NCBI RefSeq assembly: GCF_018982965.1
Contig: NZ_JACBYP010000029.1
Coordinates: 1-64,000, forward strand
Source of the DNA: Streptomyces mayonensis
GTDB lineage: Bacteria > Actinomycetota > Actinomycetes > Streptomycetales > Streptomycetaceae
Reading direction: 5' to 3'
DNA length: 64,000 bases
In this document: piece by piece, positions 531 to 55,792 of the stretch
Layout of the letters: each line of letters begins with the position of its first letter
Numbering within the stretch: position 1 is the stretch's first letter
Program-made: the position numbers and the translations under genes
The notes under the pieces: model-generated
Told to the model about the DNA's origin: nothing
Database searches by the model: none
The model's input: the letters and a program-made list of their open reading frames with translations, nothing else

Positions 531-721
531 GCATCGCCCGGACGACGGAGTACACGTACCTGGGCCCTCACTGCCGCTTGAGCCCTGACCAGGACCTCAG
601 CCCTGTTCCGTCCACACCACGAGCTTCGTCGAGCCACCCACGCCGCCAGCCAGGCTGTCCTCGAATGCACTCGTGGTCGCAGCACCGCATGGAGAGCCCC
701 CTTCACCAAGTGTGGTGAAAG

Positions 722-762
722 GCGAGGGGCTCGAAACCGTCGCACGGTTTCGAGCCCCTCGC
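722..762 (-). terminator. Strong intrinsic terminator of aspS
   Basis: A perfect 19-bp inverted repeat (arms 722-740 and 744-762, loop CGC) lies 22 bp past the aspS stop. A second, shorter hairpin with arms TTCACCA (702-708) and TGGTGAA (713-719) follows. The long stem is symmetric and could also stop transcription from the convergent gene on the plus strand. Confidence 0.85.
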
Positions 763-783
763 CGCGGTACTGACCGCCGCAGA

Positions 784-2547: not shown

Positions 2548-2589
2548 CGTCGTTCATCCAGCCTTCGCGGATCGGGGATGGCGTTTCGC

Positions 2590-2603
2590 GTTTCACGTGA
2601 AAC
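2590..2603. promoter_or_regulatory. parS: parS centromere site (ParB binding)
   Basis: The exact 14-bp palindrome GTTTCACGTGAAAC, the consensus ParB-binding site of Streptomyces and Bacillus, lies between aspS and the divergent phosphatase gene. ParB loads here for chromosome segregation and condensation. In Streptomyces these sites cluster around oriC, which helps place the window. A second perfect copy is at 44450-44463. Confidence 0.92.
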
Positions 2604-2731
2604 AACCCCAGCGTACCGGGCACCGGTGGCCGACTTCTTCCCCATTGACCGGCCCCGGGACAGCACCTGACCGGCTCCGGGGCGGCGGCGACCGGTGGCA
2701 GCGCTCGATCGTATCTCCCTAAAGTGGGGCA

Positions 2732-4888
2732 ATGCGTACTGGTGCTGGTGACCCTCTGGCCGACGTGGAAGACGTCCTTGTCGCCCTCGGGACCGGCCTG
2801 TGGCACTGGGACACCGACGCGGGTGAGGTCAGGGTGGACGCGCAGGCCGCCCACCTGCTCGGGCTCCCCGCCGAGCCGGCCTGCCTCACCGAGGCGCAGG
2901 TACGGGCCCGGCTGCATCCGGTCGACTGGAACGAGATCACCGGAGTGGTCCAGCTCGCCGTCGCCGAGGGCACCCTCGCCGAGGTCCGCATCCGCATCAT
3001 GGACGAGAGGGGCCACATCGTCCGCGTGGTCCGCAGCCGCTCGCGCCCCTCCTTCGACCCCGACCGCAAGGCGTACGAGCTGACCGGCGCCCTCCAGGAG
3101 GTCACCGAACCGGCACCCGGCACACCCGCCGGGCGCAGCGCGGTCACCGGCGACTGGCGCCGCTCGCGGGAGGCCTTCCTGCTGGACGCCGGCCGGGCAC
3201 TGGCCGAGGCGCGCTCCACGGAGGAGGTGCTCCGGGTCGCGGCCGGGCTGTCGATGCCGGGCTTCTCTCCCGACGGTCTCGCGGTGTTCGGGGTGTCGGG
3301 CGACCGCCTCAGCGTCATCGGCCACCACGGGCAGCCGGACGCCGAGGCGGACCCGTTCATGGACATGTCGCTGAGCACCGACTACCCGGCCACCGAGGTG
3401 GTCCGCACCGGCCGCGCGGTCTATCTCTCCTCCCCCCAGCAGTACCGGTCCCGGTACCCCATGACCTGGCCGCTCGCCGAGCGCTTCGGCCGTCAGTCCT
3501 GGGCCTATCTGCCGCTGACCGTGGCGGGCCGCACCATGGGTGCCTGGATGGCGGCCTTCACCTATCCGGTCGCCTTCACGCCGGACGAACGCTCCGTCCT
3601 GACCACCGTGGCCCGGATGCTCGCCCAGGCCCTGTCCCGGGCCGGCGCGGCCGAGACCCAGCGGCAGCTGACCGACGGACTGCAGCGCACCATGCTGCCC
3701 GCGCTCGGTCCGCAGATCCCCGGTATGGACATCGCCGCCCGCTACGTCCCCACCGGCGGCGGCCTCCAGGTCGGCGGCGACTGGTACGACATGATCGCGC
3801 TGCCCGGCGGCCGCTTCGCCCTGGTCATCGGCGACGTCCAGGGACACGACGTGCGGGCCGCCGCACTGATGGGCCAGCTGCGCATCGCCCTGCGCGCCTA
3901 CGCCTCCGAGGGCCACCGCCCGGACGCGGTGCTCTCCCGCGCCTCCCACTTCTTCCACGGCCTCTCCGAGTCCTACGGCGACCCGGCGGACCTGCGCTTC
4001 GCGACCTGCTACTACGCCGAGGTCGACCCCGCGAACGGCACACTGGAGAGCGCCCGCGCCGGCCATCTGGACCCGGTGGTGCGGATGACGGACGGCACGG
4101 CACTGATCCTCGCCACGGCCGGCGGCCTGCCGCTGGGCATCGACCCGGACTCCGACTACCCGACCACCCGGTTCGCCCTGGAACCGGGGGACACGCTGAT
4201 GCTGTGCACGGACGGCCTGGTCGAAACGGGCGGCCACGACCTGCGGACCGGCTGGGAACGCCTGCGGGTGGTCCTGGAGGAGCACGAGGACGGCCTGGAG
4301 GAGCTGGCCGACGCGCTGATCCAGACCGTGCACGGACCCTCCTCCCACCACACGGTCGGACCGCTCGTCGACCGGCGGGAGGACGACATCGCCCTGGTCC
4401 TGCTGCACCGGCAGGGCGAATGCGACGCCGGTGTGCCTCTCCCGTCGCCGGTGCGCCGCACGATGATGACGGTCTCCCAGGCGGAGCCCGCGCGGATCGC
4501 CACCGCCCGGCAGCACCTGCGGGACCTCCTCCACGACTGGCCCGACGAGGAGCAGCGCGACGCTGCGGTGCTGCTCCTCTCCGAGCTGCTGACGAACGTC
4601 CTCGTCCACACCGACGCCGACGCCCTGCTGGCCGCAGAGGTCGGCGGGGAGCCGGGCGAGCGGCGGATCCGGGTGGAGGTCACCGACAACGGCGACGACC
4701 TGCCGCACAAACGCCGGCCCGGAGAGATGGCGTCCTCGGGACGCGGCCTGGTGCTCATCGAACTGCTCGCGGACACCTGGGGCGTCGCCCCGCGCGGCAC
4801 GGGCAAGAGCATCTGGTACGAGCTCTACGAGTCCACGCCCCCGCCGGACGCCCCGGGCGCGGCCGCCGTCCCCGCGGACGCCGCGTAA
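2732..4888 (+). CDS. PAS-GAF-SpoIIE phosphatase with C-terminal HATPase
   Basis: Multi-domain regulatory protein of 718 residues. A PAS-like domain (~10-125) is followed by a GAF domain (~145-300), a PP2C/SpoIIE Ser/Thr phosphatase domain (~310-560, with GGDWYDM, GDVQGH, CTDGLVE and DDIALVLL as metal-binding motifs) and a GHKL ATPase of the anti-sigma-factor kinase type (~583-700, N-box ELLTNVLVH, G-box GRGLVLIE). Proteins with phosphatase and kinase-like modules in one chain usually act in partner-switching control of sigma factors by dephosphorylating anti-anti-sigma proteins. No sigma factor or antagonist gene is adjacent, so its partner is unknown. Its 3' end overlaps the convergent transporter gene by 64 bp. 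Confidence 0.92.
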   Translation: MRTGAGDPLADVEDVLVALGTGLWHWDTDAGEVRVDAQAAHLLGLPAEPACLTEAQVRARLHPVDWNEITGVVQLAVAEGTLAEVRIRIMDERGHIVRVVRSRSRPSFDPDRKAYELTGALQEVTEPAPGTPAGRSAVTGDWRRSREAFLLDAGRALAEARSTEEVLRVAAGLSMPGFSPDGLAVFGVSGDRLSVIGHHGQPDAEADPFMDMSLSTDYPATEVVRTGRAVYLSSPQQYRSRYPMTWPLAERFGRQSWAYLPLTVAGRTMGAWMAAFTYPVAFTPDERSVLTTVARMLAQALSRAGAAETQRQLTDGLQRTMLPALGPQIPGMDIAARYVPTGGGLQVGGDWYDMIALPGGRFALVIGDVQGHDVRAAALMGQLRIALRAYASEGHRPDAVLSRASHFFHGLSESYGDPADLRFATCYYAEVDPANGTLESARAGHLDPVVRMTDGTALILATAGGLPLGIDPDSDYPTTRFALEPGDTLMLCTDGLVETGGHDLRTGWERLRVVLEEHEDGLEELADALIQTVHGPSSHHTVGPLVDRREDDIALVLLHRQGECDAGVPLPSPVRRTMMTVSQAEPARIATARQHLRDLLHDWPDEEQRDAAVLLLSELLTNVLVHTDADALLAAEVGGEPGERRIRVEVTDNGDDLPHKRRPGEMASSGRGLVLIELLADTWGVAPRGTGKSIWYELYESTPPPDAPGAAAVPADAA

Positions 4889-19545: not shown

Positions 19546-20844
19546 ATGAGCGCACCAGCCCGCTTCGACCGCGGCCACACCGACGACCTGATGTCCTTCC
19601 TCGCGGCGAGCCCCACGCCGTACCACGCAGTGGCGAACGCCGCCGCGCGGCTGGAGAAGGCCGGCTTCCGCCAGGTCGCCGAGACGGACGCCTGGGACGG
19701 GACGAGCGGCGGCAGGTACGTGCTGCGCGGCGGAGCGATCGTGGCGTGGTACGTCCCCGAGGGCGCCGCGGCCCACACCCCCTTCCGCGTCGTCGGCGCG
19801 CACACCGACTCCCCCAACCTGCGGGTCAAGCCCCGTCCGGACACCGGGGCGCACGGCTGGCGCCAGATCGCCGTGGAGATCTACGGCGGCCCGCTGATGA
19901 ACTCCTGGCTCGACCGCGACCTGGGCCTGGCCGGCCGGCTCTCGCTGCGCGACGGCACCACCCGCCTGGTCGACGTCGACCGGCCGCTGCTCCGCGTCCC
20001 GCAGCTCGCCATCCACATGGACCGGGCCGTCTCCACGGACGGCCTCAAGCTCGACAAGCAGCGCCACCTCCAGCCCGTCTGGGGCCTCGGCGACACCGTG
20101 CGCGACGGCGACCTGATCGCCTTCCTGGAGGACGAGGCGGGGCTGGCCCGCGGCGAGGTCACCGGCTGGGACCTGATGACGCACTCCGTGGAGCCGCCGG
20201 CCTACCTCGGCCGCGACAAGGAGCTGGTGGCGGGCCCGCGCATGGACAACCTGCTGTCCGTGCACGCCGGTACGGCCGCGCTGGCCGCGGTCGCGACGTC
20301 CGGCGCGGACCTGCCGTACGTGCCCGTCCTCGCCGCCTTCGACCACGAGGAGACCGGCTCCCAGTCGGACACCGGCGCCGACGGGCCGCTGCTCGGCAGC
20401 GTCCTCGAGCGCTCGGTGTTCGCGCGCGGCGGCTCCTACGAGGACCGGGCGCGCGCCTTCGCCGGCACGGTCTGCCTGTCCTCCGACACGGGTCACGCCG
20501 TCCACCCCAACTACGCGGAACGGCACGACCCGACGCACCACCCGCGGATCAACGGCGGCCCGATCCTGAAGGTCAACGTCAACAACCGGTACGCGACGGA
20601 CGGTTCGGGCCGCGCGGTCTTCGCCGCCGCCTGCGACAAGGCGGGGGTCCCCTTCCAGACCTTCGTCTCCAACAACTCCATGCCCTGCGGCACCACCATC
20701 GGCCCGATCACCGCGGCCCGGCACGGCATCAGCACCGTCGACATCGGTGTGGCCATCCTGTCGATGCACAGCGCACGGGAGTTGTGCGGCGCCGAGGACC
20801 CGCACCTGCTGGCGAACGCCCTGGGGGCGTTCCTCCAGCCGTAG
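19546..20844 (+). CDS. M18 family aminopeptidase
   Basis: Cytoplasmic metallo-aminopeptidase of 432 residues, the usual length of bacterial M18 (aspartyl/leucyl aminopeptidase I) proteins. Dinuclear metal ligands are visible as GAHTDSPNLRVKP (His, Asp), the catalytic/ligand Glu pair in FDHEETGSQS, GPRMDNLLS, and the C-terminal His in SMHSARELCG. It removes N-terminal residues from peptides, probably for peptide turnover. ATG at 19546 lies in AACCCCATGAG; a GGTGA stretch upstream may be its ribosome site. Confidence 0.94.
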   Translation: MSAPARFDRGHTDDLMSFLAASPTPYHAVANAAARLEKAGFRQVAETDAWDGTSGGRYVLRGGAIVAWYVPEGAAAHTPFRVVGAHTDSPNLRVKPRPDTGAHGWRQIAVEIYGGPLMNSWLDRDLGLAGRLSLRDGTTRLVDVDRPLLRVPQLAIHMDRAVSTDGLKLDKQRHLQPVWGLGDTVRDGDLIAFLEDEAGLARGEVTGWDLMTHSVEPPAYLGRDKELVAGPRMDNLLSVHAGTAALAAVATSGADLPYVPVLAAFDHEETGSQSDTGADGPLLGSVLERSVFARGGSYEDRARAFAGTVCLSSDTGHAVHPNYAERHDPTHHPRINGGPILKVNVNNRYATDGSGRAVFAAACDKAGVPFQTFVSNNSMPCGTTIGPITAARHGISTVDIGVAILSMHSARELCGAEDPHLLANALGAFLQP

Positions 20845-31407: not shown

Positions 31408-32721
31408 TCAGACCCCCTCGGCCTCTGCGAACGACGCCTGGTAGGCGGCGAACTGCGCCCGCTCCTCGTCGACGAGCGCGTGCCCGTCCGCGTACACGTT
31501 CTCGAAGAGGGCGAGACGGTCCGGGTCCGGCATGGCACGGACCACCTCGCGCACTCGTTTGCCCAACGTCTCGCTCTCCGCCTCCAGTTCCGCGAAGAAT
31601 CCCTCGTCCGCGTGGTGTGCGGACTCCAGGTGGCGGCGCAGGCGCAGGATCGGGTCCTTCGCCTCCCAGGCGGCGCGCTCGTCGTCGTGCCGGTAGCGGG
31701 AGGGGTCGTCCGAGGTGGTGTGGGCGCCCATGCGGTACGTGTACGCCTCGATCAGCGCGGGTCCCTCGCCGCGCCGGGCGCGGTCCAGGGCCCAGCGGGT
31801 GACCGCGAGGGAGGCCAGCACGTCGTTGCCGTCGACGCGGACGCCGGGGAAGCCGAAGCCCTGGGCGCGCTGGTAGAGCGGCACGCGGGTCTGCTTCTCG
31901 TTGCCCTCGGAGATCGCCCACTGGTTGTTCTGGCAGAAGAACACCACGGGCGCGTTGTAGACGGCGGCGAAGTTGAAGGCCTCGCTGACGTCGCCCTGGC
32001 TGGAGGCGCCGTCGCCGAAGTACGCGATCACGCCCGAGTCCGCGCCGTCCTTGGCGACGCCCATGGCGTAGCCGGTGGCGTGCAGGGCCTGCGAGCCGAT
32101 GACGATCGTGTACAGGTGGAAGTTGTTGCTGTTCGGGTCCCAGCCGCCGTGGTTGACGCCGCGGAACATGCCGAGGAGGTTGGTGGGGTCGACCCCGCGG
32201 CACCAGGCGACGCCGTGCTCGCGGTAGGTCGGGAAGACGTAGTCGTCCTCGCGGGTGGCGCGGCCGGAGCCGATCTGGGCGGCCTCCTGGCCGAGCAGCG
32301 AGGCCCACAGGCCCAGCTCGCCCTGGCGTTGCAGCGCGGTGGCCTCGGCGTCGAAGCGCCGGGTGAGGACCATGTCGCGGTACAGGCCGCGCAGCTCGTC
32401 GGGGGTGATGCCGGCGACGTACTCGGCGTACTCCGCGTAGGCCGCCTTCCCGGTCGGCTCGACGCGCTCGCCCTCGGGCGTCAGCAGCTGCACCAGCTCC
32501 GTCTCGGAGCCCTTCTTCGCAGCGGCGCGCGTGGTGCGGGTGGGACGAGTGGTGCGGGTGCCGGTGGTGCGGGTGGTGCGCTTGGTGCCGGTCCCGGCCT
32601 TGCCGCCGGTGTTCCCGGCCGCCTTGCCGCCGGTGTTCCCGGACGCCTCGGTGCCGGTGGTTCCGGCCGCCTTGCTTCCGGCGCTGCGTCGCGGTTTGCG
32701 CGCGGCAGTGCTCTCGGTCAC
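31408..32721 (-). CDS. bkdA: Branched-chain 2-oxoacid dehydrogenase E1 alpha subunit, operon 1
   Basis: A protein of 437 residues from GTG 32719-32721 behind GGAGGAG. The thiamine-diphosphate motif is GDGASSQGDVSEAFNFAAVYNAP, ending near FFCQNNQWAIS, with YRMGAHTTSDDPSRYR downstream. The first ~65 residues are an unusual Thr/Gly/Arg/Lys-rich low-complexity tail (GSKAAGTTGTEASGNTGGKA, TTRTTGTRTTRPTRTTR) not needed for catalysis, which makes the protein longer than most E1 alpha chains. First gene of the operon; a TTTACT-N10-AGTAAA inverted repeat lies 192-213 bp upstream. Confidence 0.94.
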   Translation of the reverse strand: MTESTAARKPRRSAGSKAAGTTGTEASGNTGGKAAGNTGGKAGTGTKRTTRTTGTRTTRPTRTTRAAAKKGSETELVQLLTPEGERVEPTGKAAYAEYAEYVAGITPDELRGLYRDMVLTRRFDAEATALQRQGELGLWASLLGQEAAQIGSGRATREDDYVFPTYREHGVAWCRGVDPTNLLGMFRGVNHGGWDPNSNNFHLYTIVIGSQALHATGYAMGVAKDGADSGVIAYFGDGASSQGDVSEAFNFAAVYNAPVVFFCQNNQWAISEGNEKQTRVPLYQRAQGFGFPGVRVDGNDVLASLAVTRWALDRARRGEGPALIEAYTYRMGAHTTSDDPSRYRHDDERAAWEAKDPILRLRRHLESAHHADEGFFAELEAESETLGKRVREVVRAMPDPDRLALFENVYADGHALVDEERAQFAAYQASFAEAEGV

Positions 32722-34517: not shown

Positions 34518-36128
<1,611 letters not shown>

Positions 36129-42505: not shown

Positions 42506-43350
42506 GCACGGCCACGAGCACCGCCGGCGGGGAACTCTCCTCGGTCAGCACCGAATCGCTGGCGGCCCTGCTGATCGCCAAGCAGCGGCCGCCGCGGCCC
42601 AGCGCCCTGTCCGCGTCCCTGACCTTCGGCTGGCGCGCGATCCTCAAGATCAAGCACGTGCCGGAGCAGTTGTTCGACGTCACCGCCTTCCCGATCATGA
42701 ACCTGTTGATGTTCACCTACCTCTTCGGCGGTGCGCTCGCGGGTTCGCCCGGCGACTACATCCAGTTCGTCCTGCCGGGCATCCTGGTGATGTCGGTCGT
42801 GATGATCACGATGTACACCGGGGTCTCGGTCAACATCGACATCGAGAAGGGCGTCTTCGACCGCATCCGCTCGCTGCCGATCTGGCGGCCCTCGGCGATG
42901 GTCGGCTACCTCCTCGGCGACGCCCTGCGGTACACCATCGCGTCCGTCGTGATGCTCTCGGTCGGGCTGCTGCTCGGCTACCGGCCCGACGGCGGGTTCG
43001 TCGGCGTGGTCGCCGGGATCGCGCTGCTGCTGCTCTTCTCGTTCGCCTTCTCGTGGATCTGGACGATGTTCGGGCTGATGCTGCGCACCGAGAAGTCGGT
43101 GATGAGCGTCAGCATGATGGTGATCTTCCCGCTCACCTTCCTGTCCAACGTCTTCGTCGACCCGAGGACCATGCCGGGCTGGCTCCAGGCCTTCGTCAAC
43201 AACAGCCCGATCACCCACCTGGCGTCCGCGGTGCGCGGCCTGATGGCGGGTGACTGGCCGGGCGTCGAGATCGCCTGGACGCTGGGCTGGGCGGGCGCGC
43301 TCCTGCTGGTCTTCGGCCCGGTCACGATGCGGCTGTACAACCGCAAGTAG
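42502..43350 (+). CDS. ABC-2 type permease, DrrB-like
   Basis: A protein of 282 residues with six hydrophobic helices and the ABC-2 signature region ([63 protein letters not shown]). It forms the membrane channel for the DrrA-like ATPase. Substrate unknown; no TetR or other regulator gene adjoins the pair. Confidence 0.9.
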
Positions 43351-46958: not shown

Positions 46959-48641
46959 TCAGAGGGTGCGCAGCAGCACCGCCGGCTGTTCGACGCAGTC
47001 CGCCACGTACCGCAGGAAGCCGCCCGCGGTGCCGCCGTCGCACACCCGGTGGTCGAAGGTGAGGGACAGCTGGACGACCTGACGCACGGCCAGCTCGCCC
47101 TCGTGCACCCAGGGTTTGGCGACGATGCGGCCGACGCCGAGCATGGCCGCCTCGGGGTGGTTGATGATCGGCGTGGAGCCGTCGACGCCGAACACTCCGT
47201 AGTTGTTCAAGGTGAAGGTGCCGCCGGTCAGTTCGCCGGGCGTCGGGCGCCCCGCACGCGCCGCCTCGGTCAGCCGGGCGAACTCGGCGGTGAGGCCCTC
47301 GGCGTCCCGCGCGTGCGCGTCCCGTACGACCGGCACGACGAGACCGCGGTCCGTCTGGGCGGCGAAGCCGAGGTGGACGTGGTCGTGCTGGACGACCTCG
47401 CGGGCCTCCGTGTCGACCGAGGCGTTGAGCTCCGGGTACCGGGCCAGGGCCGCGGTGCAGATCCGGGCCAGCAGGGCGACCAGGGAGACCTTCGGCCCGC
47501 CGGAGGCGTTCATCGCGGTGCGCGCCCCCATCAGCCCGGTCGCATCGGCGTCCACCCAGCAGGTCGCGTCGGGGATCTCGCGCCGGCTGCGGGAGAGCTT
47601 GTCGGCGACGGCGCCGCGGACGCCCTTGAGGGGCGTACGGACACCGCCGGGGCGTGAGGCGGGGGAGAGGACGGCGGACTCGGACTCCTGCGCGGCGGCG
47701 GGCGCCGGGGCGGCGGCGGTGGCCCGTGCCCGGCTCGCCGCGGTCTCCGGCTCCGCCGTCCGGCCGCGCCGCGCGGCGGAGGCCCGCAGCGCGTCCTCCA
47801 CGTCCGCCCGCAGGATCAGTCCGTCCGGTCCCGAACCGGTCAGCTCGCGCAGATCCAGCTCGTTCTGCCGGGCCAGCCTGCGCACCAGCGGGGAGATCAC
47901 CGGAACCGGTCCGTCCAACGGTCCGTCCAACGGTCCGTCCAGCGAGCCGTCCGCCCGTCCGTCCATCAGGCCGTCCGCCCGTACCTCCACCGGTCCATCC
48001 ACCGGTCCATCCACCGGCTCCGCGATGCGGATCCGGCCGTTCGTCCGCCCGGCCGTGCCGGTGGCCGTCGGCCGGTCGGGACGCACCCTCCGCCGCCGCG
48101 CGGGCGCCTCGGACGTGCCGTAACCGACCAGGACGTTGCCGGATCCCCCGCCCTTCACCTGCGCACTCCCCGTCCCCCCGGCCGACGGCTCCGCGCCCCG
48201 GGAAGCCCTCACGGGAGCGTCCCCGGCCGGGGCGTCCCCGCGCAGAGTCCGCCCGGCGGCGTCACCGGTTCCCGGGGCCGGCACCGGGCCGTCCGCGGCC
48301 GGCGCACCCCCGCCCCCGGCAACCGCCCCGACTCCGACTCCGCCGTCGCCCATGCCGTCGTGCGCGCTTCCGCCTTCGCCCTCGCCCACCGCCACGGTGA
48401 CCAGCGGCGCCCCGACCGGCAGCTCCGTGCCCTCCTCGCCGAAGCGGGCAGTGACCACGCCGCCGTAGGGACAGGGCACCTCGACCATCGCCTTGGCCGT
48501 CTCGACCTCGACGACCGGCTGGTCGACGGCGACCACGTCACCGACCTCGACGAGCCAGCGCACGATCTCCGCCTCGGTGAGCCCCTCACCGAGGTCGGGG
48601 AGCCTGAACTCCCGGCCGTTCCCTCCAGAAGCGTGTGCCAT
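46959..48641 (-). CDS. bkdC: Branched-chain 2-oxoacid dehydrogenase E2, operon 2
   Basis: A protein of 560 residues. Lipoyl domain with Lys ~50 in VEVETAKAMVEVP, a long variable linker, E1/E3-binding domain (SPLVRRLARQNELDLRELTGSGPDGLILRADVE), and CAT domain with LTFDHRVCDGGTAGGF, the acyltransferase motif. The linker carries DG-P/L repeats (DGPLDGPLDGPVP, PVDGPVDGPVE) encoded by 12-bp tandem repeats near 47910-48015. It does the same reaction as the E2 at 28898; the two may differ in substrate or timing. One-base overlap with the E1 beta gene. Confidence 0.93.
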   Translation of the reverse strand: MAHASGGNGREFRLPDLGEGLTEAEIVRWLVEVGDVVAVDQPVVEVETAKAMVEVPCPYGGVVTARFGEEGTELPVGAPLVTVAVGEGEGGSAHDGMGDGGVGVGAVAGGGGAPAADGPVPAPGTGDAAGRTLRGDAPAGDAPVRASRGAEPSAGGTGSAQVKGGGSGNVLVGYGTSEAPARRRRVRPDRPTATGTAGRTNGRIRIAEPVDGPVDGPVEVRADGLMDGRADGSLDGPLDGPLDGPVPVISPLVRRLARQNELDLRELTGSGPDGLILRADVEDALRASAARRGRTAEPETAASRARATAAAPAPAAAQESESAVLSPASRPGGVRTPLKGVRGAVADKLSRSRREIPDATCWVDADATGLMGARTAMNASGGPKVSLVALLARICTAALARYPELNASVDTEAREVVQHDHVHLGFAAQTDRGLVVPVVRDAHARDAEGLTAEFARLTEAARAGRPTPGELTGGTFTLNNYGVFGVDGSTPIINHPEAAMLGVGRIVAKPWVHEGELAVRQVVQLSLTFDHRVCDGGTAGGFLRYVADCVEQPAVLLRTL

Positions 48642-49645
48642 CAGCTTTCAACCTCCCACTGCAGGCGCCCCACGGCGTCCAGGATCCGGTCCACACCGGG
48701 CAGGTGGTGACGCTCCAGCATCGGCGGCGGGTACGGGATGTCGAACCCGGCCACACGCAGCACCGGTGCCTCCAGGTGGTGGAAGCACCGCTCCGTGACC
48801 CGGGCCGCGATCTCCCCGCCCGGTCCCCCGAAGGAGCCCGACTCGTGGACGACGACCGCGCGTCCCGTCCGCCGCACTGAAGCGCACACCGTCTCGTCGT
48901 CGAACGGCACCAGGGAGCGCAGATCGACGACTTCGAGGTCCCAGCCCTCGGCCCGGGCCGCCTCGGCCGCCTCCATGCAGACGGCCAGCGACGGCCCGTA
49001 CGTGATGAGTGTGGCGCTCCGGCCGGAACGCCGCACCACCGCGCGGCCCGTCGGTTCAACGGGTGCCGGTTGCTCGGGGTTCCAGACCTCCTTGGACCAG
49101 TACAGACGCTTGGGTTCGAGGAAGACCACCGGGTCGTCGGAGGCGATGGACTCGCGCAGCAGCCCGTAGGCGTCGGCGACGGTCGCGGGCGTGACGACAT
49201 GGAGCCCCGGAGTCGCCATGTAGTACGCCTCGGACGAGTCGCTGTGGTGCTCGACGCCGCCGATGCCGCCGCCGTAGGGGACGCGGATGGTCAGCGGCAG
49301 GGGAAGCGCGCCGCGCGTGCGGTTGCGCATCTTGGTGACGTGGCTGACGACCTGCTCGAACGCCGGATAGGCGAAGGCGTCGAACTGCATCTCCACCACC
49401 GGACGGAGCCCGTACATCGCCATGCCGACGGCCGCGCCGAGGATGCCGGCCTCGGCGAGCGGGGTGTCCGTGCAGCGTTCCTCGCCGAACTCCTTCGCGA
49501 GCCCGTCGGTGACCCGGAAGACACCGCCGAGGGTGCCCACGTCCTCGCCCAGGACGTGCACGGCCGGGTCGGCGGTCATGGCGTCGCGCAGGGCGCGCGT
49601 GAGGGCCTGCGCCATGGTGGCCGGCCGGACGGCGGCGGTCGTCAT
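48641..49645 (-). CDS. bkdB: Branched-chain 2-oxoacid dehydrogenase E1 beta, operon 2
   Basis: A protein of 334 residues, clearly paralogous to the E1 beta at 30426 (VHVLGEDVGTLGGVFRVTDGL, RVPYGGGIGGVEHHSDS, VVDLRSLVPFDDETV). It forms the thiamine-diphosphate E1 with the alpha subunit encoded just upstream; start overlaps that gene by 4 bp and the stop overlaps E2 by 1 bp. Confidence 0.93.
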   Translation of the reverse strand: MTTAAVRPATMAQALTRALRDAMTADPAVHVLGEDVGTLGGVFRVTDGLAKEFGEERCTDTPLAEAGILGAAVGMAMYGLRPVVEMQFDAFAYPAFEQVVSHVTKMRNRTRGALPLPLTIRVPYGGGIGGVEHHSDSSEAYYMATPGLHVVTPATVADAYGLLRESIASDDPVVFLEPKRLYWSKEVWNPEQPAPVEPTGRAVVRRSGRSATLITYGPSLAVCMEAAEAARAEGWDLEVVDLRSLVPFDDETVCASVRRTGRAVVVHESGSFGGPGGEIAARVTERCFHHLEAPVLRVAGFDIPYPPPMLERHHLPGVDRILDAVGRLQWEVES

Positions 49646-50793
49646 CGGGGTCCCCCTCCGGACGCCTCGGCCTCGGCCTCCGCCGCCAGCTCGGCGAGCA
49701 GCAGGTCCCGCTGCTCGCGCAGCTGCGGGGTCGGCTCGGCGTAGACGTGGGCGAACAGGTCCGTCGGGTCGAGCTCCGGGTCCTCGTTCATCCGGGCGCG
49801 CAGGTCGGCGGCCATGGCCTCGGCGTCCTCGCGGGCCGCGCGGACGCCGTCCCCGTCGAGCAGCCCGCGCCCGGTCAGCTCCCGCTCCAGCAGGTCGACC
49901 GGGTCGTGCCGGCGCCAGGCCGCCACCTCGGTCTCGCCTCGGTAGCGCGTCGCGTCGTCGGCGTTGGTGTGCGCGTCGACGCGGTACGTCACCGCCTCCA
50001 CCAGCGTGGGGCCGCCACCCGCGCGCGCGTGCCGTACGGCGTCGGAGAGGACCTCGTGCACCGCGGCGGCGTCGTTGCCGTCGACCAGGCGGCCGGGCAT
50101 CCCGTAGCCGACGGCCTTGTGGGCCAGCGACGGGGCGGCGGTCTGCTTGGCCAGCGGGACGGAGATCGCGAAGCCGTTGTTCTGCACCAGGAAGACGACC
50201 GGTGCCCGCCAGACCGCGGCGAAGTTCAGCGCCTCGTGGAAGTCGCCCTCACTGGTGCCGCCGTCGCCGACCATGGCCAGCGCGACCACGTCGTCGCCCT
50301 TGAGGCGGGCGGCGTGGGCGAGGCCGACGGCGTGCGGCAGCTGGGTGGCGAGCGGTGTCGACAGCGGGGCGACCCGGTGCGCGCCGGGGTCGTAACCGGT
50401 GTGCCAGTCGCCGCGCAGCAGGGTGAGGGCCTCGACGGGGTCGACGCCGCGGGTGACGACGGCGAGGGTGTCGCGGTAGCTGGGGAAGAGCCAGTCGCGC
50501 TCCTGGAGGGCCAGCGCGGCGGCGATCTCGCACGCCTCCTGGCCGGTGCTGGACGGGTAGACGGCCAGCCGTCCCTGCTTGGTCAGCGCGGTGGCCTGCG
50601 TGTTGTAGCGCCGGCCGCGGACCAGGCGGGCGTAGAGCGTGCGCAGCAGCGCGGGGTCGACGCGCTCGGCGGCCTCCGTGCCGAGGACGCGGTACGGCTC
50701 CGCGTCGGGCAGCAGCGGCGCGGGCTCGGTACGGGGCTGCCAGGCGGGCGGCGGCGCGGGCCGGTACGCGCCCCGCTGCTCCATGACCGTCAT
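49642..50793 (-). CDS. bkdA: Branched-chain 2-oxoacid dehydrogenase E1 alpha, operon 2
   Basis: A protein of 383 residues. Thiamine-diphosphate motif GDGGTSEGDFHEALNFAAVWRAP then FLVQNNGFAIS; YRVDAHTNADDATRYR near the C-terminal part. ATG 50791-50793 (MTVMEQRGAY) follows GAGGAGGAGG; no low-complexity tail, unlike the operon 1 paralogue. First gene of operon 2. Two palindromes in the 156-bp gap to the divergent bkdR-like gene are the likely control sites. Confidence 0.93.
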   Translation of the reverse strand: MTVMEQRGAYRPAPPPAWQPRTEPAPLLPDAEPYRVLGTEAAERVDPALLRTLYARLVRGRRYNTQATALTKQGRLAVYPSSTGQEACEIAAALALQERDWLFPSYRDTLAVVTRGVDPVEALTLLRGDWHTGYDPGAHRVAPLSTPLATQLPHAVGLAHAARLKGDDVVALAMVGDGGTSEGDFHEALNFAAVWRAPVVFLVQNNGFAISVPLAKQTAAPSLAHKAVGYGMPGRLVDGNDAAAVHEVLSDAVRHARAGGGPTLVEAVTYRVDAHTNADDATRYRGETEVAAWRRHDPVDLLERELTGRGLLDGDGVRAAREDAEAMAADLRARMNEDPELDPTDLFAHVYAEPTPQLREQRDLLLAELAAEAEAEASGGGPR

Positions 50794-50855
50794 GACGGCA
50801 CCTCCTCCTCGTGGGAGCGGCTGTGGGCTCGCCACGGGTGTGACGGGCCTCACCT

Positions 50856-50869
50856 ACCGATTGTTCGGT
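50856..50869. promoter_or_regulatory. TetR-type operator upstream of bkd operon 2
   Basis: ACCGATTGTTCGGT: perfect ACCGA-N4-TCGGT palindrome 63-76 bp before the E1 alpha start. The same half-sites and spacing recur at 53886-53899 in the divergent promoter of the HCDH/PaaN genes, which flank a TetR gene. The two copies differ at one base in the spacer. Confidence 0.6.
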
Positions 50870-50898
50870 CGCCGGCACATTTTGGCTACAGGCGGCCC

Positions 50899-50930
50899 CA
50901 GGCTGTGGACAAACGGTTCTCCACAGCCTG
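50899..50930. promoter_or_regulatory. Inverted repeat with DnaA-box-like arms before bkdR
   Basis: Perfect 11-bp arms CAGGCTGTGGA (50899-50909) and TCCACAGCCTG (50920-50930) with a 10-bp spacer. The left half includes TTGTCCACA read on the minus strand, the Streptomyces DnaA-box consensus, and the right half TTCTCCACA. It ends 19 bp before the bkdR ATG. A Lrp/AsnC dimer site or a DnaA-controlled promoter are both possible. Confidence 0.55.
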
Positions 50931-50949
50931 AGATGGATGCAGTACGTCC

Positions 50950-51489
50950 ATGGCGGGAAGGCGGGGGCACGTGGCAGCTGAACAAATGGCCGAGCACCCG
51001 GAGGACGGCGGCCGCGCCGAGGAGGCCGCACCCCCGCCGCCCCCGCGCCCGCTGGACGCGATCGACCAGGACATCCTGCGCATGCTCCAGGCGGACGGCC
51101 GCGCCTCGATACGGTCGGTCGCCGAGCGGGTGCACGTCTCGCGCGCGAACGCCTACGCCCGCATCAACCGGCTCGTCGAGGACGGCGTCATCCGCGGCTT
51201 CGGCGCCCGCGTCGACCACGAACGCGCGGGGCACGGCACCTCCGCCTACATCACCCTGAAGATCGTGCAGAACACCTGGCGCACGGTCCGCGCGGAGCTG
51301 CGCCGACTGCCCGGCGCCTCCCACATCGCCCTGGTCGGCGGCGACTTCGACGTCCTGCTGCTGGTCCACACCCCCGACAACCGGGCCCTGCGCGAGCTGG
51401 TGCTCAGCCGCCTCCAGGCCATCCCGGAGGTGCTCAGCACCCGCACCCTGCTGGTCTTCGAGACCGAGGACCTCGAACCGCAGAGCTGA
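50950..51489 (+). CDS. bkdR: Lrp/AsnC-family regulator of the bkd operon
   Basis: A protein of 179 residues. HTH: LDAIDQDILRMLQADGRASIRSVAERVHVSRANAYARINRLVEDGVIRGF; the C-terminal RAM/ligand domain has GTSAYITLKI, HIALVGGDFDVLLLV and the TRTLLVFE strand. Divergent position beside the bkd genes is the classical arrangement of BkdR, which responds to branched-chain amino acids. GTG 50971 (VAAEQMAEH) is an alternative start behind GGCGGGGG. Confidence 0.9.
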   Translation: MAGRRGHVAAEQMAEHPEDGGRAEEAAPPPPPRPLDAIDQDILRMLQADGRASIRSVAERVHVSRANAYARINRLVEDGVIRGFGARVDHERAGHGTSAYITLKIVQNTWRTVRAELRRLPGASHIALVGGDFDVLLLVHTPDNRALRELVLSRLQAIPEVLSTRTLLVFETEDLEPQS

Positions 51490-51562
51490 CCGCCCGGAGC
51501 AGCGCGCCGACCGGCGGGACCGCCGGACCGGACACGCGAACACGGACCACGCCCCACCGCCG

Positions 51563-51666
51563 CAGCCACAGCCACAGCCACAGCCACCAGGAACGGCGGC
51601 TACGGCTACGGCTACGGCTACGGCTACGGCTACGGCTACGGCTACGGCTACGGCTACGGCTACGGC
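51563..51666. repeat. Two hexanucleotide arrays, (CAGCCA)4 and (GGCTAC)11
   Basis: CAGCCA repeats four times at 51563-51586. After 11 bp, GGCTAC repeats eleven times without error at 51598-51663 followed by GGC. The array ends 7 bp before the TetR stop codon. The plus strand reads Gly-Tyr and the minus strand Val-Ala repeats, but no gene covers it. It sits between the convergent bkdR and TetR genes. Confidence 0.9.
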
Positions 51667-51673
51667 ATCAGGA

Positions 51674-52285
51674 CTACCCCTTGCGCAGCCCGCCGAAGAC
51701 CAGCCGCGCCACCGCGTCGACCACCTCGCGCTCCCCCTCGCGCTCCCCCGCCCCGGCCCGGCCGTCGGCAGCGTCCGGCCGGTACCACTCGACGATCGAG
51801 TTGATCATGCCGAAGACCAGGCGCGTCGCGAGCCGCACCTCCACGTCCGCGCGCACGTCCCCCTTGGCCGCCGCGTCCTTGAGCAGGGCGGCGACCCGGT
51901 GGTCGAACTCGCGCCGCCGCTCCAGCGCCCACCGCTCGGTGTCGGTGTTGCCGCGCACCCGCAGCAGCAGCGTCACGTAGGGCAGCTCGGCCATGAGCAC
52001 CTCGACCATGCGCCGTACGACGTACTCCAGCCGTCCGGCCGCGGAGCCCACGCGCGCGTGCTCCTCGTCGAGGATCCCGAAGAGCTCGTCCAGGGCCCGG
52101 CTCACGGCCCGGCGCAGCAGCTCCTCCTTGCCGGCCACGTGGTGGTAGATCGACGACTTGGAGATCCCCGCCGCCTTGGACAGGTGCTCCATGGAGGTGC
52201 CGTCGTAGCCGCGCTCGATGAAGACCTGCACGGCGACGGACAGCAGCGTCTCGGGCGTGTACGTGTCGCGCCTGGCGGTGGTCAT
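51674..52285 (-). CDS. TetR-family regulator (PaaR-like by context)
   Basis: A protein of 203 residues. HTH: YTPETLLSVAVQVFIERGYDGTSMEHLSKAAGISKSSIYHHVAGKEELL; C-terminal helical ligand pocket. It overlaps the end of the hydroxyacyl-CoA dehydrogenase gene by 4 bp, so it is made with an acyl-CoA enzyme. By this context it probably senses an acyl- or aryl-CoA. The palindrome ACCGA-N4-TCGGT at 53886 in the promoter of its own operon, repeated before bkd operon 2, is the proposed site. Confidence 0.88.
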   Translation of the reverse strand: MTTARRDTYTPETLLSVAVQVFIERGYDGTSMEHLSKAAGISKSSIYHHVAGKEELLRRAVSRALDELFGILDEEHARVGSAAGRLEYVVRRMVEVLMAELPYVTLLLRVRGNTDTERWALERRREFDHRVAALLKDAAAKGDVRADVEVRLATRLVFGMINSIVEWYRPDAADGRAGAGEREGEREVVDAVARLVFGGLRKG

Positions 52286-53829
52286 GGGCGACTGCCTTCG
52301 GCTGCGTCGGCTGCGTGCGCGTGGCGGTACAGCGCGAGGGACGGCGCGCAGCGGCCCGTGGCATCACGCCGGTGCAGCTCGGCGAGGAGCGCGTACGCCC
52401 AGGTACGGCCGAGCGTGCGGCCCCACTCGAGGGGTCCGAGCGGGTAGTTGACGCCCAGCCGCATCGCGGTGTCGACGTCCGCCCCGGTGGCGACGCCCTT
52501 GGCGACGGCGTCGTGCGCCAGGTCGACGATGCGCGCCACGGTGCGGGCGACGATCATGCCGGGTACGTCACCGATGACGCTGACCTGTTTGCCGAGCGCC
52601 TGGAAGAGGCCCGTGGCCCCGTCGAGCGTCCCGCGCGGTGTGCCGGGACCGGCGGACAGGGCGATGCGGGTGGCGCGGCGGTAGTCGAGGGCGAGGTCGA
52701 AGTGGACGGTGTCGCCGAGTTCGCCGGTGGTGCGGCCGTCGGCGAGCAGCAGCTGTCCGCCGCCGGGCAGGACGAGCCGCCCGCAGGTGCCGCCGCCCTT
52801 CTCCCCGCCCTCGGCCTCCCGGACCTCGGCCTCCCGGACCTCGACGCCCGCCTCGCGGACCAGCCCGACCAGTCCGGCGGCCGGACCCAGGTCCCCCTCG
52901 ACGACGACGTACGCGGGCGGGTCGGCAGGCCCGGCGGTCTGCGGCTCGGGGCGCCCGGCGCCCTCCCCGTACGCGTACCAGCCGTGTCCGCTCTTGCGGC
53001 CGAGCCGCCCCGACTCGACCAGCCGGCGCTGGGCCGGCGACGGCGTGAAGCGCACGTCCTGGAAGAAGGCCTGCCACACGGAGTGCGTGACGGACTCGTT
53101 CACGTCCTGCCCGATGAGGTCGGTCAGCTCGAACGCGCCCATCCTGAAGCCGCCCGACTCGCGCAGCACCGCGTCGATCGTGGCCGGGTCGGCGCCCCGG
53201 TCCTCGTACACGGCGAAGGCCTCGGCGTAGAAGGGCCGGGCGATGCGGTTGACGACGAAGCCCGGGGCGTCGGCGCAGGCGACCGGCGTCTTGCCCCAGG
53301 CGCGGGCCGTGTCGTACGCGCGCGTGGCCGACGCGGGGTCGGTGGCGGACCCGGAGACGACCTCCACCAGCGGGAGCAGCGGCGCGGGGTTGAAGAAGTG
53401 CAGGCCGACGAAGCGGCCGGGGCCGCGCAGCACGCCGCCGATCGCGGTGACGGACAGGGAGGAGGTGTTGGTGGCGAGCAGGCAGACGTCGCCGACGACG
53501 TCCTCCAGGGCGCGCAGCAGCTCCTGCTTGGCGTCCAGCCGCTCCACGACCGCCTCGACGACGAGCCCGCAGCCGGCGAGGCCGTCGAGACTCTCGGCGG
53601 CCGTGAGCCGGGCGCGGGCCGCGTCCCGTTCGGTGCCGGTGAGGCGTTCCTTCTCGACGAGCCGGTCGAGCCGGGCGCCGATCGCGGCGGCCGCTTCCCG
53701 GGCCCGCCCGGGCAGGGTGTCGTACAGCCGCACGGGATGGCCCGCGACCAGCGCCACCTGGGCGATGCCCTGGCCCATGGTGCCGGTGCCGACGACGGCC
53801 ACCGGGCTGCTGAGGTCGAGTGCTGTCAT
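52282..53829 (-). CDS. 3-hydroxyacyl-CoA dehydrogenase (PaaH-like)
   Basis: A protein of 515 residues. N-terminal NAD-binding fold VAVVGTGTMGQGIAQVALVAGHPVRLYD, catalytic His region FVGLHFFNPAPLLPLVEVVSG, and two C-terminal helical domains as in the long PaaH/HbdA type. A Glu/Val/Arg-rich insertion (VEVREAEVREAEGGEKGGG) lies between them. It oxidises 3-hydroxyacyl-CoA to 3-oxoacyl-CoA in fatty-acid or phenylacetate catabolism. First gene of an operon with the TetR gene; divergent from the PaaN-like gene. Confidence 0.92.
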   Translation of the reverse strand: MTALDLSSPVAVVGTGTMGQGIAQVALVAGHPVRLYDTLPGRAREAAAAIGARLDRLVEKERLTGTERDAARARLTAAESLDGLAGCGLVVEAVVERLDAKQELLRALEDVVGDVCLLATNTSSLSVTAIGGVLRGPGRFVGLHFFNPAPLLPLVEVVSGSATDPASATRAYDTARAWGKTPVACADAPGFVVNRIARPFYAEAFAVYEDRGADPATIDAVLRESGGFRMGAFELTDLIGQDVNESVTHSVWQAFFQDVRFTPSPAQRRLVESGRLGRKSGHGWYAYGEGAGRPEPQTAGPADPPAYVVVEGDLGPAAGLVGLVREAGVEVREAEVREAEGGEKGGGTCGRLVLPGGGQLLLADGRTTGELGDTVHFDLALDYRRATRIALSAGPGTPRGTLDGATGLFQALGKQVSVIGDVPGMIVARTVARIVDLAHDAVAKGVATGADVDTAMRLGVNYPLGPLEWGRTLGRTWAYALLAELHRRDATGRCAPSLALYRHAHAADAAEGSRP

Positions 53830-53885
53830 GTGCGCGATCCTCCCGCACGGGGTTTTCCACAGATACGGCGGTCCCCCTTGTCCCG

Positions 53886-53899
53886 ACCGATCGTTCGGT
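53886..53899. promoter_or_regulatory. TetR-type operator in the HCDH/PaaN divergent promoter
   Basis: ACCGATCGTTCGGT, an uninterrupted 14-bp palindrome, 57-70 bp upstream of the hydroxyacyl-CoA dehydrogenase start. The same ACCGA-N4-TCGGT pattern occurs before bkd operon 2 at 50856. Confidence 0.65.
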
Positions 53900-54100
53900 T
53901 ACTCTAGCCGTGTCCACCTGTTCCCGCCCAGGTTTCCCCCAGGTCCACGGACGCGACGGAGAGCCGAAGGAGCGCCGACGGAGGACCGGAGACCGAGGAG
54001 GACCGGCCGAGCGTCGCCGGCGATCCGGCGGTCTCCCGGTCCGGCCCGGTCGGCGCGGCCGGCGATCCCGCGGGCCCGTGGAGACGAGGAGTTGGTCCGC

Positions 54101-55792
54101 ATGGCCGCCGAACCCACCGCACACCAGCTGATCGCCCGGCACCGGCCGACCCTGGACCTGGCGCTGGAGACGATCCGCACGCGCGCGTACTGGTCCCCGC
54201 ACCCCGAGCACCCCAAGGCCTACGGGGAGAACGGCAGCCTGGACACGGCCGCGGGCAAGGCCGCCTTCGACGCCCTGCTCGGCACCCGCCTCGACCTCGG
54301 CCAGCCCGGCACCGACGGCTGGGTCGGCGGCGAGGTCTCCCCGTACGGCGTGGAGCTGGGCGTGGAGTACCCGCACGCGGACCTCGACGTGCTGCTGCCC
54401 GCGATGGAGGCGGGCCGGAAGGCGTGGCGGGACGCGGGCGCGGAGCTGCGCGCGGCGGTCTGCCTGGAGATCCTCAAGCGGATCGCCGACCGGACCATGG
54501 AGTTCGCCCAGGCGGTCATGCACACGTCCGGCCAGGCCTTCATGATGGCCTTCCAGGCGGGCGGCCCGCACGCCCAGGACCGCGGCATGGAGGCCGTGGC
54601 CTACGCGTACGCGGAGCAGTCCCGCACGCCGGACACCGCGGAGTGGACCAAGCCGCAGGGCAAGCGCGACCCGCTCACGCTCACCAAGCGGTTCACGCCG
54701 GTCCCGCGCGGCATCGGCCTGGTCGTCGGCTGCAACACCTTCCCCACGTGGAACGGCTACCCGGGCCTGTTCGCCTCCCTCGCCACCGGCAACGCGGTCC
54801 TGGTCAAGCCCCACCCCCGCGCGGTGCTGCCGCTCGCGCTCACCGTCCGGGTCGCCCGCGACGTCCTCACGGAGGCGGGCTTCGACCCGAACCTGGTCGC
54901 GCTGGCCGCCGAACGCCCCGGCGAGGGCATCGCCAAGACCCTCGCGACCCGGCCCGAGATCCGGATCATCGACTACACCGGCTCCACCGCCTTCGGCGAC
55001 TGGCTGGAGGCCAACGCCCGCCAGGCCCAGGTGTACACGGAGAAGGCGGGCGTCAACACGGTGCTCGTGGAGTCGACCGACGACTACCGGGGCATGCTCG
55101 CCAACCTGGCCTTCTCGCTCTCCCTCTACAGCGGCCAGATGTGCACCACCCCGCAGAACCTGCTGATCCCCCGCGACGGCATCCGCACCGACCAGGGCGA
55201 CAAGACCTACGACGAGGTGAGTGCCGACCTCGCGCGAGCCGTCGACGGCCTCCTCGGCGACGACGCCCGCGCGAACGCCGTGCTCGGCGCGATCGTCAAC
55301 CCGGACGTCAAGGCCCGCCTGGAGGCCGCCGCCGGGCTCGGCGAGGTCGCCCTGGCCTCCCGCGAAGTGACCCACCCGGAGTTCCCGGACGCGGTCGTGC
55401 GCACCCCCGTGATCGTCAAGCTGGACGGCGCCAAGCCCGAGGACGAGGCCGCGTACACCAGCGAGTGCTTCGGCCCGGTCTCCTTCGCCGTCGCCGTCGA
55501 CTCCACCACCCACGCCCTGGAGCTGCTGCGGCACAGCGTCCGCGAGAAGGGCGCGATGACGGTCGGCGCGTACACGACGGACCCGGAGGTCGAGGAGGCC
55601 GTGCAGGAGGTCTGCCTGGACGAGGCGGCCCAGCTCTCCCTGAACCTCACCGGCGGTGTGTACGTCAACCAGACGGCCGCCTTCTCCGACTTCCACGGCT
55701 CGGGCGGCAACCCGGCGGCCAACGCGGCCCTGTGCGACGGCGCGTTCGTCGCGGGCCGCTTCCGCGTGGTGGAGGTCCGCCGGCCTGCCTAG
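54101..55792 (+). CDS. paaN: PaaN-like aldehyde dehydrogenase (phenylacetate-degradation type)
   Basis: A protein of 563 residues matching the single-domain PaaN family (no fused enoyl-CoA hydratase domain). ALDH features: GCNTFPTWNGYPGLFASLATGNAVLVKPHP (cofactor region), YTEKAGVNTVLVES (Glu), nucleophile Cys 348 in SGQMCTTPQN, and C-terminal NQTAAFSDFHGSGGNPAAN. It should oxidise an aldehyde intermediate of aromatic-ring or branched-chain degradation. No paaABCDE oxygenase genes are present, so the pathway may be different from classical phenylacetate breakdown. ATG 54101 follows AGGAG. Confidence 0.88.
   Translation: MAAEPTAHQLIARHRPTLDLALETIRTRAYWSPHPEHPKAYGENGSLDTAAGKAAFDALLGTRLDLGQPGTDGWVGGEVSPYGVELGVEYPHADLDVLLPAMEAGRKAWRDAGAELRAAVCLEILKRIADRTMEFAQAVMHTSGQAFMMAFQAGGPHAQDRGMEAVAYAYAEQSRTPDTAEWTKPQGKRDPLTLTKRFTPVPRGIGLVVGCNTFPTWNGYPGLFASLATGNAVLVKPHPRAVLPLALTVRVARDVLTEAGFDPNLVALAAERPGEGIAKTLATRPEIRIIDYTGSTAFGDWLEANARQAQVYTEKAGVNTVLVESTDDYRGMLANLAFSLSLYSGQMCTTPQNLLIPRDGIRTDQGDKTYDEVSADLARAVDGLLGDDARANAVLGAIVNPDVKARLEAAAGLGEVALASREVTHPEFPDAVVRTPVIVKLDGAKPEDEAAYTSECFGPVSFAVAVDSTTHALELLRHSVREKGAMTVGAYTTDPEVEEAVQEVCLDEAAQLSLNLTGGVYVNQTAAFSDFHGSGGNPAANAALCDGAFVAGRFRVVEVRRPA

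Follow-up and report, generated by a model that had tools for sequence, protein, structure and literature searches.

A putative PaaR-type operator shared by phenylacetate genes and the second bkd operon of Streptomyces

Fatty acids and polyketides such as avermectin owe their branched starters to Bkd complexes. The Streptomyces regulator BkdR, which is SCO3832 in S. coelicolor, is one of the proteins that have been connected with the bkd genes, and deletion of bkdR in S. albus changed both growth and the product spectrum (PMC8176718). Phenylacetate degradation is the province of another regulator, the TetR-type repressor PaaR, which is known from Corynebacterium glutamicum, Burkholderia cenocepacia and S. 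pristinaespiralis (PMC10933834, PMC9493321, PMC2770484) and which in other bacteria is reported to be released by phenylacetyl-CoA (PMC9493321). Here we consider a 64,000-nucleotide (nt) stretch of Streptomyces mayonensis DNA (contig NZ_JACBYP010000029.1, positions 1 to 64,000; hereafter the window), in which one kind of palindrome stands before bkd operon 2 and before a divergent pair of transcription units (a divergon) with genes for a 3-hydroxyacyl-CoA dehydrogenase (HCDH) and for PaaN. A preliminary description of this DNA had suggested that a single TetR regulator may tie branched-chain acyl-CoA formation to hydroxyacyl/aldehyde oxidation. It is very likely, in our judgement, that both palindromes are operators of PaaR and that the phenylacetate (paa) genes and bkd operon 2 are under its shared control.

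The two sites, in window coordinates, are the following.

50856..50869, minus strand: putative PaaR-type operator in the bkdA2/bkdR divergent region, ACCGAACAATCGGT on the bkdA2 strand
53886..53899, minus strand: putative PaaR-type operator in the HCDH-TetR/paaN divergon, ACCGAACGATCGGT on the HCDH strand

Both are present as the preliminary description gave them, namely ACCGATTGTTCGGT at 50856-50869 (site 1) and ACCGATCGTTCGGT at 53886-53899 (site 2), with ACCGA-N4-TCGGT in common. Site 1 lies 63-76 nt upstream of the bkdA2 ATG (50793, minus strand) and 81-94 nt upstream of the bkdR ATG (50950, plus strand). This bkdA2 start was picked because it is preceded by GGAGGAGGTG; the mechanical list of open reading frames begins bkdA2 at GTG 50853, in which case site 1 would directly precede the start. 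Site 2 lies 57-70 nt upstream of the HCDH ATG (53829, minus strand). The HCDH gene (52282-53829) overlaps the TetR gene (51674-52285) by 4 nt, and site 2 therefore precedes an operon that encodes a TetR protein, as had been described. The window has three exact matches to ACCGA-N4-TCGGT, whereas 100 shuffles averaged 0.07 and never gave three; the pattern is thus well above chance there, while the count with one mismatch (6 against 3.1 expected, reached by 8 of the 100 shuffles) is unremarkable. The third exact match, at 43087-43100, lies inside an open frame of 282 amino acids and was set aside.

The preliminary description had named a genome-wide search for the palindrome as a check. Across the 8.65 Mb genome the loose pattern ACCGA-N4-TCGGT is found at 26 places and its reversed form at 5, and only three of the 26 match a stricter motif, ACCGAWYRDTCGGT, these being sites 1 and 2 and one place between paaA and paaI. 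The loose pattern alone is weak evidence, non-specific as it is genome-wide, and conservation therefore had to decide. The chance explanation, that two unrelated palindromes of a common type happen to stand in GC-rich DNA, draws on the 23 loose matches that are not strict and on the window copy within an open frame, and it has to be weighed against how the site is kept in relatives.

Eighty stretches around TetR homologues were fetched (L046-L125). They represent 20 of the 38 further Streptomyces matches, 27 of the 28 from the remaining genera of the family, and, at class level, 33 of the 42 from outside the genus. TetR and bkdA2 homologues occur together in the 46 Streptomycetaceae loci L046-L091, and the bkdA2/bkdR region of 45 of these contains an exact ACCGAACAATCGGT, the miss being L091; in L080, one of the 45, the bkdA2 start could not be mapped. 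Of 80 Streptomyces genomes, 79 carry a single exact copy of the 14-mer, and of 80 family genomes 73 carry one or more; the reversed control turns up in one genome of the first sample and in none of the second, and the two samples overlap. A search with the TetR protein gave 573 loci, and the 80 best, all of them named Streptomyces loci, have both sites without exception. In each of 17 further genomes for which the two positions are known, 1.2-2.0 kb separate the 14-mer from the TetR start. The columns flanking the bkd site average 0.62 bits; the 14 columns of the site itself are invariant by construction, the rows having been picked by exact match, and the meaningful number is 45 of 46. The divergon site, whose rows were picked by the loose pattern, is no more than 600 nt upstream of PaaN in every one of the 44 loci, among the same 46, that hold PaaN. 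This conservation is the strongest evidence that sites 1 and 2 are real. Absence of the sites upstream of orthologous genes, which would have spoken against the idea, is not what is seen: throughout Streptomyces and in most of the family the connection with bkd operon 2 is kept. Coincidence has been set aside by shuffles, reversed patterns and control palindromes, with the conservation regarded as refuting it, and its probability is next to nil. Nor is the palindrome a general bkd feature. The window holds a second such operon (operon 1, E1 alpha at 31417-32409, 42% identical to that of operon 2), and no nearby site with at least 9 of 10 matches is found there.

The genes next to the sites are as follows.

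46959..48641, minus strand: bkdC2, E2 acyltransferase (2-oxoacid_dh, Biotin_lipoyl and E3_binding domains)
48641..49645, minus strand: bkdB2, E1 beta (Transket_pyr and Transketolase_C)
49642..50793, minus strand: bkdA2, 2-oxoacid dehydrogenase E1 alpha, first gene of bkd operon 2 (E1_dh)
50950..51489, plus strand: bkdR, Lrp/AsnC-family regulator in the position of SCO3832 (AsnC-type helix-turn-helix and ligand-binding domains)
51674..52285, minus strand: TetR-family regulator, SCO3833 orthologue, read as PaaR (2iai match, TetR_N and TetR_C_24, paa neighbourhood)
52282..53829, minus strand: 3-hydroxyacyl-CoA dehydrogenase (HCDH), PaaH-like (PRK08268 603.9 bits, cut-off 508)
54101..55792, plus strand: paaN, aldehyde dehydrogenase of phenylacetate degradation (TIGR02288 PaaN_2)

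Two repetitive stretches occur among these genes. Six-base units, agccac and then ggctac about 12 times as counted by eye, fill 51565-51668 between the 3' ends of bkdR and TetR, and in bkdC2 the linker between the lipoyl and E3-binding domains (47905-48020) is built of units like ggtccgtccaac and ggtccatccacc.

The pathway that the bkd operon appears to join is not the hydroxyacyl/aldehyde oxidation of the preliminary description, which was wrong on this point, and is instead read as phenylacetate (phenylacetyl-CoA) catabolism. PaaN scores 1025.2 bits against the TIGR02288 PaaN_2 equivalog, well over the cut-off of 578.75. HCDH stays below the PaaH equivalog TIGR02279 (551.7 bits, cut-off 669.4) and is PaaH-like by context only. 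Because PaaN is a phenylacetate enzyme and HCDH is PaaH-like, the divergon is assigned from these matches to phenylacetate catabolism, and in many relatives sites of this type stand before paaA and paaK as well. The strict motif was searched in 20 genomes. Eight of these are Streptomyces genomes with the TetR gene, in which it occurs at 31 places, and 29 of them are the bkd site (8), the divergon (8), paaK (6), a paaA/paaK region (1) and paaA (6, one of them presumptive, as the stretch ends there); the other two both lie within long open frames. The other twelve genomes, mostly chosen as lacking the TetR gene, hold more strict sites, some of them at paa genes (G051, G043, G073 and G001) and others unassigned. 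A putative operator precedes paaK at all eight fetched places with ACCGAATGATCGGT, and paaA in several genomes. Of 19 new stretches, 12 lie at paa genes and seven do not (L148, L149, L158, L159, L162, L163 and L166), and in six of these seven the site falls inside long open frames of the sort that such DNA often has. In the genome of S. mayonensis, paaABCDE and paaI-paaK are on another contig, where a single strict match stands between paaA and paaI. Every recurrent target apart from bkd operon 2 has a product that is established as a phenylacetate enzyme or its regulator.

Some features of the paa targets are of interest in their own right. The paaA gene of S. mayonensis is adjoined by ACCGACCATTCGTTCGGT (L013 1375-1392, G000:C198), which consists of two overlapping imperfect palindromes four bases apart, and paaA in L049 is adjoined by ACCGACCGATCGTTCGGT, similar in form; such an arrangement may place two dimers on the paaA promoter. 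In L049, three genes stand between paaA and paaN (340-3650; by eye two membrane-associated proteins and one RNA methyltransferase), and genes similar to these three adjoin paaN in the window, with paaA itself on the other contig. On either side of the divergon site stand conserved blocks that, read by eye on the paaN strand, are TTGNCC and TANNCT, and the site occupies the spacer between them, a placement that resembles the position published for B. cenocepacia (PMC2770484).

The protein most naturally expected to bind these sites is the TetR protein encoded beside them, which is read as PaaR, the phenylacetate repressor, from homology, neighbourhood and motif. Among solved structures its closest match is PDB 2iai (SCO3833 of S. 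coelicolor) at 383.7 bits, followed at 67.4 bits by 3vpr, an entry that reads 'transcriptional regulator, TetR family' and that we take to be PfmR. The fold and the N-terminal helix-turn-helix of the TetR family are recognized by TetR_N (56.9 bits, cut-off 24) and TetR_C_24 (62 bits, cut-off 26.4). HCDH and paaN adjoin the gene in the window, and many of the fetched relatives have paaA on the paaN side at a distance of 4.9-6.9 kb. The linkage extends to 34 more distant homologues (48-65% identity; the 33 class-level loci outside the genus, out of 42 matches, and G041), 30 of which have a paa gene beside them. At these distant loci the exact motif is found in 9 of 34 at most 350 nt upstream of TetR, paaA, paaI, paaK, paaN, paaC or a close HCDH, six control palindromes giving none each; with at most one mismatch, it is found in 31 of 34 at most 350 nt upstream of TetR, paaA, paaI, paaK or paaN, the controls giving 0, 0, 0, 0, 0 and 6, the last from the palindrome closest to the motif. 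Palindromes of the ACCGA type stand in front of paaN, paaK and paaA and in the paaA/paaI region of S. mayonensis. Finally, the stretch around LPYVTLLLRVRGNT is strongly conserved among five aligned homologues, which is consistent with, and no proof of, one common ligand. The earlier proposal of one regulator for two units is in this part upheld: there is one type of site, a natural binder is encoded beside it, the bkd link is conserved, and one regulator probably ties the two units.

The geometry of the bkd site bears on which protein reads it and on which gene it acts. Measured from its midpoint, the distance to the bkdR start is 87.5 nt in 21 and 88.5 nt in 12 of the 33 loci in which that start could be mapped, whereas the distance to the bkdA2 start ranges from 39.5 to 123.5 nt over 27 mapped loci. 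At the centre of the bkd copy all 45 loci with the site have the non-symmetric AACAAT, as opposed to the divergon copy, whose centre varies (ACGA, ATGG, ATGA, ATGT); this constancy may reflect a second constraint, e.g., a bkdR promoter element or a BkdR contact. On the bkdR strand the site contains TTGTTC. Between the site and bkdR (50877-50917), two more conserved blocks, CCGTTTGTCCAC and TGTRGCCAAAATG on the bkdA2 strand, are candidate promoter elements or BkdR sites. Promoter-like blocks were read by eye.

Alternatively, the protein that reads the bkd palindrome may be BkdR or a different TetR protein, for instance an acyl-CoA sensor of the PccD/AccR type, and the likeness of the palindrome to a PaaR operator would then be convergent. 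The bkdR and bkdA2 genes diverge from each other, BkdR is reported as a regulator of the branched-chain dehydrogenase complex, and PccD is said to control the bkd operon of Saccharopolyspora (PMC8176718); the constant centre and the fixed distance to bkdR would also suit such a binder. However, paaA, paaK and paaN are preceded by a motif of this kind too, and the PccD and AccR motifs given in PMC10933834, as far as its relevant passages go, differ from the bkd palindrome. We regard this explanation as quite improbable. A second alternative accepts PaaR as the binder and holds that it acts mainly on bkdR, or as an activator, so that any effect on bkdA2 is indirect. The fixed spacing to bkdR, the variable spacing to bkdA2 and the TTGTTC within the site all favour bkdR as a direct target, which it may be. 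Against this, the same spacing would result if a fixed promoter block were followed by a bkdA2 leader that varies in length, and the expression data from S. rimosus described below are as expected for shared repression of the operon. This alternative is unlikely, with a clearly better claim than the preceding one.

The distribution of regulator and site across genomes adds a little to this comparison. The only Streptomyces genome of the 80 without the 14-mer, G037, has no TetR match better than 1.5e-11; bkdR and paaA are present (L130), and a possible decayed site, TTCGAACAATCTGT, agrees at 11 of 14 positions. A co-loss test on 41 family genomes, with a TetR threshold of 1e-40, is weakly informative. 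A TetR match is found in 33, of which 31 have the 14-mer (G041 and G059 being the misses), and of the eight without a match six lack the 14-mer and two (G044 and G070) carry it elsewhere, in unrelated surroundings. No bkdR is found at 1e-25 in G044, G057, G068, G070 and G073 or, from the genus sample, in G001, and co-loss is therefore not readable in these six; in G037 and G054 no bkdA2 is found in the roughly 3.5 kb fetched around bkdR. G077 has bkdR and bkdA2 homologues with neither TetR gene nor site, and it proves little because its relative G059 (same genus number) has the TetR gene yet no site. G049 alone is a clean case of co-loss: bkdR and bkdA2 homologues stand side by side, no TetR match is found at 1e-40, and the site is gone. 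This one genome, 93% complete, speaks against BkdR or another TetR protein as the binder.

Several observations weigh against shared control by PaaR. The strict motif was drawn from the sites themselves, which makes the counts obtained with it partly post hoc. In G044 and G070, which have no TetR match at 1e-40, the one 14-mer that each carries lies inside open frames in one case and between unrelated genes in the other, and G208 and G053 carry a second copy with no paa or bkd gene near. G059 keeps TetR, BkdR and BkdA2 homologues together without a site before bkdA2. In G073 and G001 the TetR gene was not found and strict sites still stand at paa genes; bkdR is likewise missing there, and the absence of the TetR gene may be an assembly gap. 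The spacing that favours bkdR belongs with these points, as does a scan of 50780-54110 for a sigma-70-type consensus promoter, which gave no match.

Evidence of another kind, on expression, comes from a published transcriptome of the S. rimosus strain HP126. In Table 2 of PMC10612213, three branched-chain dehydrogenase genes (E1 alpha 5.0, E2 4.7, E1 beta 4.6) and four phenylacetate genes (paaE 4.1, paaD 3.5, paaC 3.3, phenylacetate-CoA ligase 3.1) form the top seven rows of the table of CoA-thioester genes; the text of that paper gives log2 values, the unit of Table 2 itself not being established. In the HP126 delta-v3 column, whose comparator is not established, paaC stands at 0 and the other six genes have negative values, from -2.9 to -1.0 (PMC10612213). 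The locus tags run 19935-19945 and then 19995-20005, with the ligase distant at 35410 (PMC10612213), and they fit the gene order found here; it is by this order that the dehydrogenase genes are equated with bkdA2B2C2, which tempers the comparison, as does the fact that HP126 carries many mutations (PMC10612213). The authors discussed both pathways as extra sources of acetyl-CoA (PMC10612213), and the word PaaR is absent from the text of that paper. The co-induction is support, not proof, for shared control.

Taken together, these observations suggest the following model, in which we infer binding and repression by PaaR from the sites, and phenylacetyl-CoA as its ligand by analogy with the PaaR of other bacteria. 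PaaR, the SCO3833 orthologue encoded in the HCDH-TetR operon, would bind as a dimer at the divergon and repress both directions, its own gene included, and it would also occupy the bkdA2/bkdR divergent region. Accumulating phenylacetyl-CoA would free PaaR from the DNA, and paaABCDE, paaK, paaN-HCDH and bkd operon 2 would then be expressed together. Bkd operon 2 would be under two local controls, BkdR of the Lrp type and PaaR, with the latter acting on bkdA2 directly, via bkdR, or both.

Why a bkd operon should be regulated in this way is more speculative. One tentative idea, which we hold to be possible and rather less than probable, is that Bkd2 is in part an entry enzyme of the phenylacetate pathway and converts phenylpyruvate, derived from phenylalanine, into phenylacetyl-CoA by oxidative decarboxylation. 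A precedent exists in PglB/C, a pyruvate-dehydrogenase-like pair proposed to carry out this conversion in phenylglycine biosynthesis (PMC7089894). The phenylacetyl-CoA made by Bkd2 would be both the substrate of PaaABCDE and the expected ligand of PaaR, so that the product would induce its own operon, and PaaR would sit in a feed-forward loop that opens phenylalanine catabolism, with a changed supply of branched-chain acyl-CoA starters, for membranes as well as polyketides, as a side effect. The closest solved structures to bkdA2 are PDH and BCKDH E1 alpha chains, and the substrate preference of Bkd2 is not readable from these structure matches, as both bkd E1 alpha proteins of the window match the same kinds of chain. 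Alternatively, phenylacetyl-CoA may signal amino-acid catabolism generally, the branched-chain and aromatic routes opening together. If shared control by PaaR is true, feeding of phenylalanine or phenylacetate and deletion of paaR would be ways to shift the supply of branched acyl-CoA, paaR phenotypes in producing strains would need rereading, and a single cause would be offered for the co-induction printed for S. rimosus (PMC10612213). The activity of Bkd2 on phenylpyruvate is, moreover, a testable enzymological question.

PaaR and a motif of this kind have already been reported. Among the closest described systems is PaaR of S. pristinaespiralis (SSDG_03033; Zhao et al. 2015), like the putative PaaR here a TetR-type repressor of paa genes in Streptomyces, with a putative site, AACGA-N4-TCGGT, that shares the core; unlike here, the passages of PMC10933834 that deal with it do not mention a bkd operon. 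PaaR of B. cenocepacia (BCAL0210) is likewise a TetR-type repressor, of paaA, paaH and paaZ, and its operator, ACCGACCGGTCGGT, which lies between -35 and -10, has the shared core (PMC2770484). Its sites were, in contrast, concluded by the authors to be specific to phenylacetate clusters, and the relevant passages mention no bkd target (PMC2770484). PfmR (TTHB023) of Thermus thermophilus has a reported site, TACCGACCGNTNGGTN, which also has the shared core and is close to ACCGATCGTTCGGT, but the overall similarity of 3vpr to the TetR protein here is low (67.4 bits), and the targets named in the passages on it are fatty acid biosynthesis genes, with no bkd operon (PMC7022988). The control of the Streptomyces bkd operon by BkdR (SCO3832) concerns the same divergent region and the same operon (PMC8176718), yet BkdR, unlike PaaR, belongs by its domains to the Lrp/AsnC family and represents a second, separate control. 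A link between PaaR and bkd was not found in the literature searched, most subscription papers lying outside that search, and this is no proof of unpublished status. Set beside these systems, what seems to be new in the sequences compared here is bkd operon 2 as a core and near-universal target of PaaR in Streptomyces.

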